DNA of 64,000 nt, from NCBI RefSeq assembly GCF_024451105.1, contig NZ_JANGEY010000007.1, positions 1 to 64,000 on the forward strand, given 5' to 3'. Within the stretch, counting starts at the first letter, position 1. Every line of letters starts with the position of its first letter. Of the stretch, positions 19,214 to 22,841 are shown in pieces. The stretch comes from Stutzerimonas stutzeri. GTDB taxonomy: Bacteria; Pseudomonadota; Gammaproteobacteria; Pseudomonadales; Pseudomonadaceae. The position numbers and the translations under genes are program-made. The notes under the pieces were generated by a model, which worked only from the letters and a program-made list of their open reading frames with translations, did not search any database and had not been told where the DNA came from.

Positions 19214-21994
19214 ATGAGTCTAGCCCCTCTCGTCCTGGTGGACGGTTCCTCCTACCTGTACCGCGCCTTCCACGCCCTGCCGCCGCTGCACACCTCCGCC
19301 GGCCTGCCCACCGGGGCGGTGAAGGGCGTGCTGAACATGCTGCTGAGCCTGCGCCGGCAGTACCCGGACAGTCCGTTCGCGGTGGTGTTCGACGCCAAGG
19401 GTCCGACCTTCCGCGACGCGCTGTTCGAGCACTACAAGTCGCACCGCCCGCCGATGCCCGACGACCTGCGCGTGCAGATCGAGCCGCTGCACGCCTGCGT
19501 GCGCGCCCTCGGCCTGCCGCTGCTGTGCATCGAGGGGGTCGAGGCCGACGACGTGATCGGCACCCTGGCGCGCTCCAGCGCCGCCGCCGAGCGCCCGGTG
19601 CTGATCTCCACCGGCGACAAGGACATGGCCCAGCTGGTCGATGGCCACGTCACCCTGGTCAACACCATGACCAACCCGCCGACCTACCTGGACCGCGACG
19701 GGGTGGTGGCCAAGTTCGGCATCGGCCCGGAGCTGATCATCGACTACCTGGCGCTGATGGGCGACAAGGTCGACAACATCCCCGGCGTGCCGGGGGTCGG
19801 CGAGAAGACCGCGCTGGGCCTGCTGCAGGGCCTCGGCGGCGGCCTCGACCTGATCTACGCCAGCCTCGAACAGGTGCCGGCGCTGCCGATCCGCGGCGCC
19901 AAGAGCCTGCCGGCCAAGCTCGCCGAGCACCGCGAGATGGCCTACCTGTCCTACCAGCTGGCGACCATCAAGACCGACGTGGCGCTCGACGTGCACCTCG
20001 ACGAGCTGCATCCGGGCGAGACCGACCGCGCCGCGCTGATCGAGCTGTACCGCAGCCTGGAATTCAAGAGCTGGCTGAACGACCTGCTGAAGGACGGCAA
20101 GGCCAGCGCGGCGGCGGCGGATGCCAGCAGCGCAGTCGCGTCCGAGGCGGCAGAGCCGGCGGCACAGGCGCAACCGGTGATCGAGACCCGCTACGAAACC
20201 GTGCTGGAGCAGGCCCGGCTGGACGCCTGGCTGGACAAGCTCAAGGCCGCCGAGCTGTTCGCCTTCGATACCGAGACCACCGGCCTCGACGCCCAGCAGG
20301 CCGAGCTGGTCGGCATCTCCTTCGCGGTCAGCCCCCATGAGGCGGCCTACGTGCCGCTGGCGCACAGCTACATGGGCGTGCCCGAGCAGCTCGACCGCGA
20401 CGCGGTGCTCGCCGCGCTCAAGCCGCTGCTGGAGGACCCGGCGAAGGCCAAGGTCGGCCAGCATGCCAAGTACGACATCAACATCCTCGCCCGCTACGGC
20501 ATCGAGGTGCGCGGCGTGGCCTTCGACACCATGCTCGAATCCTACGTGCTGGACTCCACCGCCACCCGCCACGACATGGACAGCCTGGCGCTCAAGTACC
20601 TCGGCCAGAGCACGGTGAAGTTCGAGGACATCGCCGGCAAGGGCGCCAAGCAGCTGACCTTCGACCAGATCGCCCTCGAGCAGGCCGGGCCCTACGCCGC
20701 CGAGGACGCCGACGTGACCCTGCGCCTGCACCGCACTCTGTGGGACCGACTGCAGGCCGAGCCGGCGCTGGCGAAAGTGCTCACCGAGATCGAGATGCCG
20801 CTGGTGCCGGTGCTGGCGCGCATCGAGCGCCACGGCGCGCTGGTCGACGCCAAGCTGCTCGGCGAGCAGAGCCTCGAGCTGGGCGAGAAGATGCAGCAGC
20901 TCGAGCGGGCGGCCTTCGAGCTGGCCGGCGAGGAATTCAACCTCGCCTCGCCCAAGCAGCTCGGCGCGATCCTCTACGCCAAGCTCGGCCTGCCGGTGCT
21001 GTCGAAGACCGCCAAGGGCCAGGCCTCGACCGCCGAGAGCGTGCTCGCCGAGCTGGCCGAGCAGGGCCATGCGCTGCCCCAGGTGCTGATCGAGTATCGC
21101 AGCGTCAGCAAGCTGAAGAGCACCTACACCGACCGCCTGCCCGAGCAGATCAACCCGCGCACCGGGCGCATCCACACCAGCTACCACCAGGCGGTGACCG
21201 CCACCGGCCGGCTGTCCTCCTCGGATCCGAACCTGCAGAACATCCCGATCCGCACTGCCGAGGGGCGGCGCATCCGCCAGGCCTTCGTCGCCCCGCCGGG
21301 CTACAAGCTGCTGGCCGCCGACTACTCGCAGATCGAGCTGCGCATCATGGCCCACCTGGCCCAGGATGCCGGCCTGCTGGATGCCTTCCGCCACGACCGC
21401 GACGTGCACCGCGCCACCGCCGCCGAGGTGTTCGGCGTCGAACTGGAGCAGGTCACCCCCGAGCAGCGCCGCCGCGCCAAGGCGATCAACTTCGGCCTGA
21501 TCTACGGCATGAGCGCCTTCGGCCTGGCCAGGCAGCTGGGCGTCGAGCGCCGGGAGGCCCAGGAGTACATCGAGCGCTACTTCGCCAGATACCCCGGCGT
21601 GCTGGCCTACATGGAGCGCACCCGCGAGCAGGCCAGCGCGCAGGGCTACGTCGAGACCCTGTTCGGTCGCCGCCTGTACCTGCCGGAGATCCGCTCGCGC
21701 AACGGCGCGATGCGCAAGGCCGCCGAGCGCACCGCGATCAACGCGCCGATGCAGGGCAGCGCGGCGGACATCATCAAGCGCGCCATGGTCGCGGTGGACG
21801 CCTGGCTGCAGGACAGCGGGCTGGATGCGCGGATGATCCTCCAGGTCCACGACGAACTGGTCCTGGAGGTCCGCGAGGATCAGGTGGAAGAACTCAAGGC
21901 CGGGCTGCTGCCGCGCATGAGCAGCGCCGCCGAACTGGACGTGCCGCTGCTGGTCGAGGCCGGGGTCGGCGCCAACTGGGACGAGGCGCACTGA
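19214..21994 (+). CDS. polA: DNA polymerase I
   Basis: This 926-residue enzyme is used for repair synthesis and Okazaki fragment processing. A 5'-3' exonuclease domain ([20 protein letters not shown], then [12 protein letters not shown]) fills about residues 1-290. The 3'-5' exonuclease domain has Asp352 and Glu354 in FDTETTG. The polymerase domain has motif A DYSQIELR (Asp703), motif [15 protein letters not shown] and motif [11 protein letters not shown] (Asp880). All catalytic residues are present. The ATG at 19214 is chosen over an in-frame upstream extension because the family begins here. Confidence 0.98.
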
Positions 21995-22012: not shown

Positions 22013-22041
22013 GAACTTTGGTCGCCCTGCGGGAGTCAATG
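22013..22041 (+). promoter_or_regulatory. Sigma-22 (AlgU/RpoE-type) promoter candidate ahead of the ErsA-like RNA
   Basis: GAACTT (22013-22018) is followed after 17 bases by TCAATG (22036-22041). This fits the AlgU/sigma-22 pattern GAACTT-N16/17-TC. It starts 19 bases after the polA stop. ErsA of P. aeruginosa, at the same locus, is known to be sigma-22 dependent. Confidence 0.75.
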
Positions 22042-22045
22042 TCTG

Positions 22046-22176
22046 CGAGAGGTTGGCAGACCCCTCGCGAGTCTCCATGCGCTGCCCTGCCCCGGCAGGA
22101 TGCCCGTCCGCCCCGCCATGGCGCTCGGGCCCGATGACCGGCCTTCCATCCCCCCAACGGAAGGTCGGTTTTTTTT
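22046..22176 (+). ncRNA. ersA: ErsA-like small RNA (Spot 42-position RNA) between polA and engB
   Basis: The stretch between polA and engB lacks a gene. It has a sigma-22-type promoter at its 5' side and ends in a strong intrinsic terminator: an 11-bp stem (22137-22147 with 22159-22169, one G-U pair), then eight T. The implied transcript is about 130 nt, close to the known length of ErsA, which occupies the same site in P. aeruginosa (as Spot 42 does in E. coli). An internal GGTTGGCAGACCCCTCGCGA region could expose C-rich pairing bases. Exact ends are estimates from promoter and terminator spacing. Confidence 0.78.
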
Positions 22177-22190
22177 GCCTGTGCGCCGGC

Positions 22191-22841
22191 TCAAGCCGGC
22201 TCGCCGGCCTCCTCGTCCGCCGGCTCGAGCAGGTCCATCCAGCCGGCCAGCACCTCCTGCGCGGCCTCGACGCCCATGCGCTTGGGCGCGGAGAACAGCT
22301 GCGCGCTGGCCACCTCGCCCCAGCCCTGGCGGATTTCCTTCTGCACCTTGAGCAGGGTGTTCTTCGCCGCGCCGTAGGTGAGCTTGTCGGCCTTGGTCAG
22401 CAGGATGTGCATGGGCAGGCAGCTGGCCTTGGCCCAGTCGAGCATCAACCGGTCGAACTCGGTGAGCGGATGACGGATGTCCATCAGCAGGACCACGCCG
22501 ACCAGGCTCCGGCGGCTGCCCAGGTAGGCCTCCAGGTGGCGCTGCCAGTGCTGCTTGAGCGGGATCGGCACCTTGGCGTAGCCGTAGCCGGGCAGGTCGA
22601 CCAGGCGACGCGCATCGTCGAGGCGGAAGAAGTTGATCAGCTGGGTGCGCCCCGGGGTCTTCGAGGTGCGCGCCAGACGAGCGTGAGTCAGGGTGTTCAG
22701 TGCGCTGGACTTGCCGGCGTTGGAACGTCCGGCGAAGGCCACCTCGAAGCCCTCGTCGGGCGGACACTGGTCGACCTGGGCGGCGCTCTTGATGAAAGCG
22801 GCCTGCTGGCACAGGCCGAGGATGGGATTCTTGACGGACAT
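22191..22841 (-). CDS. engB: Ribosome-biogenesis GTP-binding protein EngB/YihA
   Basis: This 216-residue GTPase is needed for assembly of the large ribosomal subunit. G1 is GRSNAGKSS (from residue 38), switch I TPGRTQ, G3 DLPGYGYAK and G4 TKADK, all intact. The start [10 protein letters not shown] is typical. It converges with the ErsA-like RNA, and its stop is 15 bases past the T-run of that terminator. The tail ends in an acidic stretch, as in related pseudomonads. Confidence 0.96.

Follow-up and report, generated by a model that had tools for sequence, protein, structure and literature searches.

Small RNAs (sRNAs) are often assumed to retain their targets when their locus and promoter are retained. 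Whether this holds for the sRNA candidate found between polA and engB in this genome is the question addressed here, using the 64-kb stretch of DNA containing this locus (the window) and related genomes. In Pseudomonas aeruginosa, ErsA is a 132-nt sRNA that is encoded between polA and engB and is strictly dependent on σ22 (AlgU) (PMC5819304, PMC7565897, PMC8575079). These reports agree with the description of ErsA (about 132 nt, the same locus, σ22-dependent) from which the original prediction of an ErsA-like sRNA in the window started. It is highly probable that the locus encodes an ErsA orthologue with a likely AlgU-dependent start, a predicted RNA of 130 nt, a rewritten linker, and a probably changed set of targets. 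On the basis of sequence comparison, the sRNA is of a known kind, namely ErsA, and what is new is the remodelled targeting region in the genus.

The polA-engB locus and its assignment to ErsA

The stop codon of polA, whose start at MSLAPL was inferred from the sequence, is located at positions 21992-21994, and the GAACTT/TCAATG pair begins 18 bases downstream (Table 1). Inspection of the ORF list and the translations revealed no plausible gene in the polA-engB interval. Long ORFs running across the interval were rejected as ordinary GC-rich artefacts, the frame of which is broken by indels among relatives, and a search for a phage origin of the region gave no match. EngB was 93% identical to that of Pseudomonas sp. 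A-1 (G005), a member of the genus and the nearest named relative in the genome collection compared. Both polA and engB flank ErsA in relatives within the family Pseudomonadaceae and in families f8 and f34, while the neighbours in family f2 were not confirmed; the interval is thus the location of ErsA/Pseudomon-1 (RF01719). A contig titled Pantoea sp. Cy-639 (L114, NZ_VWXI01000017.1) carries engB and an ErsA promoter of the Pseudomonas type, and this title is therefore probably a mislabelling. In Escherichia coli, the equivalent site beside polA is occupied by the sRNA Spot 42. ErsA has been called a functional orthologue of Spot 42 in a review (PMC8395346), and no Rfam match to Spot 42 was found in the region.

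Among all Rfam families searched with 4 kb around the locus, the best match was RF01719 (positions 22070-22184, 29.3 bits, E 0.0066), and this family had only one match in the whole genome (E 0.0014). The proposed search with the ErsA covariance model therefore returned ErsA as its top match, but with a score under the gathering cutoff of 50 bits. Matches to RF01719 were obtained in all eight genomes of the genus, the seven others scoring 34-67 bits, so that the shortfall below the cutoff represents graded divergence. Because the Rfam model (116 positions) omits the 5' stem-loop, 16 relatives were used to construct a full-length covariance model, R1, which gave a sole match in the window, at 25.8 bits, spanning positions 22047-22176. 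P. aeruginosa ErsA was compared indirectly, by way of the Rfam model and close relatives, and the orthologue call rests on synteny, promoter, and structure rather than on the Rfam cutoff. The prediction of an ErsA-like sRNA between polA and engB is borne out by the Rfam match, the synteny, the conserved promoter, the covarying structure, and the presence of algU-mucA and hfq. These features mark the sequence as a true orthologue of ErsA that has a conserved σ22-type stress promoter.

Promoter, predicted transcript, and secondary structure

As predicted, GAACTT and TCAATG separated by 17 bases are present just past the polA stop codon, at positions 22013-22041. The pattern GAACTT-N14..17-GTCNN(A/T) occurs only once in the 64-kb window of 70% GC when both strands are counted. 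A σ22-type −35 element, GAAC(T/C), together with a TC-containing −10 element was found in nearly every ErsA locus compared. The genome encodes algU-mucA, and GAACTT-N16-TCTAC, the same motif as that of the sRNA promoter, precedes algU; hfq is also encoded. On the other hand, the −10 sequence here (TCAAT) differs from TCAGA of the family, which counts against the explanation that we favor. Since the σ22-type promoter is conserved and the genome carries algU-mucA with a matching motif, control of the sRNA by AlgU is likely, and the proposal that the RNA has its own σ22-type promoter stands.

The covariance model gives a predicted transcript of 130 nt, in agreement with the approximately 131 nt predicted originally, with the putative +1 placed according to the promoter position and the beginning of SL1. 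The terminator had been described as an 11-bp stem followed by eight T residues. The stem and the T-run are both real; the stem consists of 12 pairs including two G-U pairs (22136-22147 with 22159-22170), which is a difference in counting. The outer pairs of the stem use the first two bases of the T-run (22169-22176), and this is the only run of at least seven T residues on the plus strand of the window. Among 59 ErsA sequences, standard pairs occupied 95% of the cells over the three stem-loops, compared with 54-56% when the partners were slid by one column, and 26 of 27 pairs had changed on both sides, although the alignments follow a model derived from relatives and the pair counts therefore lean toward its structure; the difference from the slid pairing is nevertheless large. 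The window sequence itself folds into the same three stem-loops, the last of which is an intrinsic terminator.

AlgU-loaded RNA polymerase would most likely initiate at approximately 22047, and SL3 would end transcription at approximately 22176, yielding an RNA composed of SL1, a linker (domain II), SL2, and the terminator. The 3' U-tail of the terminator appears suited to Hfq, which may bind there. By analogy with P. aeruginosa ErsA, the sRNA would most likely base-pair with mRNAs, and the likeliest pairing parts would now be the invariant SL1 with its UUGGCAG and the C-rich terminator loop.

Table 1. Positions in the window of the sRNA locus, its predicted elements, and the neighbouring genes.
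Feature	Position	Strand	Basis
polA (DNA polymerase I), upstream neighbour	19214..21994	+	ORF; relatives 74-94% at ErsA loci, 3 families
−35 element GAACTT, σ22 (AlgU) type	22013..22018	+	Sequence; GAAC(T/C) in nearly all ErsA loci
−10 element TCAATG (GTCAAT; most genera GTCAGA)	22036..22041	+	Sequence; comparison with relatives
ErsA-like sRNA, predicted transcript of about 130 nt	22047..22176	+	Full-length covariance model R1; Rfam RF01719
SL1, 5' stem-loop	22047..22066	+	Fold; covariation of helix 1; 92% mean identity in genus
UUGGCAGA in SL1	22053..22060	+	Its UUGGCAG equals the 3' part of the ancestral domain II core
Domain II, remodelled	22067..22101	+	8/16 match to core, the shuffled level
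Hairpin CCUGC-CCCG-GCAGG inside domain II, predicted, window only	22086..22099	+	Fold
SL2, central stem-loop	22102..22130	+	Fold; covariation of helix 2
SL3, intrinsic terminator stem-loop and eight T	22136..22176	+	Fold; covariation of helices 3 and 4
C-rich terminator loop AUCCCCCCAAC	22148..22158	+	CCCC near 3' end in 58/59 ErsA sequences
engB/yihA (GTPase), convergent downstream neighbour	22191..22841	−	ORF; relatives 58-93% at ErsA loci

Domain II and SL1 in the genus

Domain II of P. aeruginosa ErsA is a U-rich, unstructured pairing domain (PMC8575079, PMC5819304). Outside the genus, its 16-nt core, GUGUUUAGUGUUGGCA, was matched at 13 or more of the 16 positions in 54 of the 55 ErsA genes compared, families f2, f8, and f34 included. 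Within the genus, the match fell to 8-10 positions in all eight genomes, and the 8 positions matched here compare with a mean of 7.7 for shuffled sequences. The U content of domain II was 18%, compared with approximately 40% in relatives, and the domain is predicted to form a hairpin; a U-rich, unstructured domain with the conserved core is thus not found here. GGCAG of the core persists at positions 22095-22099, where the predicted fold pairs these bases. We also rejected the idea that the genus shares an additional hairpin in domain II: such a hairpin is possible in G005, G001, and G002, does not exceed shuffled sequences, and is absent from the window. No second ErsA with the old core was found elsewhere in this genome in a search allowing up to 3 mismatches.

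In the PolA tree, the genus forms a single clade within the family, and the neighbouring genus, represented by G023, retains the core. The loss of the core is therefore a derived change, and by this comparison the linker was rewritten after the genus split from its sister genus. The ErsA of G023 (locus L017) shares the locus, promoter, and layout with the sRNA studied here, and the C-terminal part of PolA is 90% identical, but its core is intact at 15 of the 16 positions, and UUGGCAG is missing from its SL1. P. aeruginosa ErsA (RF01719, Pseudomon-1) likewise shares the polA-engB site, the σ22-type promoter, a length of approximately 130 nt, the SL1-linker-SL2-terminator layout, the C-rich terminator loop, and the U-tail. 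In contrast to it, domain II here is not U-rich, lacks GUGUUUAGUGUUGGCA, and is predicted to be folded; SL1 holds UUGGCAG, and the Rfam score is under the cutoff.

Conservation has also shifted between the two domains. The identity of SL1 and domain II was 92% and 54%, respectively, within the genus (MAFFT), and 77% and 84%, respectively, in 13 other genera. Each of the eight genomes of the genus carries UUGGCAG in SL1, where none of the other ErsA sequences examined has it. In domain II, GUUGGCAG is retained as well in five of the eight genomes and is absent here and in G001 and G002. It is conceivable, if somewhat doubtful, that the pairing site was relocated: UUGGCAG would have arisen again in SL1 and become invariant, and the original would then have been lost here and in G001 and G002. 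A seven-base match in SL1 has a chance of approximately 1% on a rough estimate and reflects one evolutionary event only, and we therefore put relocation forward as a hypothesis. If it is true, the targeting site of the sRNA was moved or replaced on an otherwise retained scaffold and under the same stress promoter.

Targets and alternative explanations

Since the genus has a rewritten version of the linker that serves for target pairing elsewhere, the target list has probably changed; the sRNA probably controls different genes than does P. aeruginosa ErsA. The genome encodes algC, an AmrZ-like gene, and an Anr-like gene. In its algC, neither ATG nor GTG lies just upstream of the catalytic domain, and an ATG ahead of this domain was found in seven of eight other readable genomes, the exception being G022. 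No member of the AlgX/AlgJ family, to which the search for alginate genes was confined, turned up in the eight genomes of the genus, whereas the family was found in G015 and partly in G012. Duplex energies between domain II and the start regions of amrZ, own and swapped, were no better than those of shuffled sequences even for genomes with an intact core, so that this test was without power. The AmrZ-like proteins of the genus (L187-L192; L190 here) have themselves diverged, scoring 73-75 bits to Arc compared with 86-97 bits in other genera. The original prediction further held that regulation of carbon and exopolysaccharide metabolism by envelope stress has been maintained in this organism. 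This is not supported, since the output part of the sRNA has changed. Domain II is unrecognisable in the genus, AlgX/AlgJ was not found, and the internal ATG of algC is missing in this genome. The AlgU input side looks conserved, whereas the output side does not.

Could the function of ErsA nevertheless be fully conserved, with both its AlgU input and its targets (algC, amrZ, anr, and oprD) unchanged, and with a domain II that drifts because few of its bases matter? The retained promoter, architecture, and C-rich loop, the presence of algC and of amrZ-like and anr-like genes, and the remaining GGCAG would fit such a case. However, three other families keep the core and its loss is confined to this genus, GGCAG is predicted to be paired, and the AlgX/AlgJ and algC results point the same way; we regard full conservation as unlikely. 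Even less probable is that ErsA is decaying, so that promoter and terminator remain and the RNA regulates nothing. A domain II at the shuffled level and drifting toward GC-rich sequence, together with the low model score, is what decay would produce, but SL1 is 92% identical in the genus, and the promoter, stems, and terminator are kept in all eight genomes, which requires selection.

It might also be argued that the interval holds just the polA terminator and unrelated sequence, with no separate RNA, as the stem and T-run would stop polA transcripts too. The promoter, SL1, and SL2 are, however, conserved and covary across genera, and P. aeruginosa ErsA is a known transcript at the same locus (PMC8575079, PMC5819304), which makes this explanation highly improbable. 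With an ErsA orthologue of probably changed targets as the preferred reading, a single genus has lost a core common to the ErsA of four families and yet retains the input and the scaffold, and the sister genus serves as a clean reference. The genus may thus offer a natural test of target change in an sRNA, and it cautions against transferring the functions of P. aeruginosa ErsA by synteny alone.

ErsA-like RNAs with the same domain II core were also found in families f34 and f2 of the order (L129, L131, L133-L135, L138, and L141). The tested ErsA-like RNAs outside the family scored below the RF01719 cutoff, and the Rfam model lacks the 5' stem-loop; the Rfam family therefore understates the range of ErsA. 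Second, partial matches to RF01719 (model positions 34-108, 30-33 bits) were obtained at G008:C11:34892-34961, G025:C9:20603-20665, and G014:C4:1037391-1037458. In family f8, tandem pairs of complete ErsA-like genes lie beside polA (L128, L130/L144, L132/L142, and L139/L145 in G193, G215, G256, and G236, respectively), and every copy in these pairs has a GGAACTT promoter and a terminator of its own. A third copy, diverged and lacking an evident promoter, is present in G193 (L128:1657-1784).
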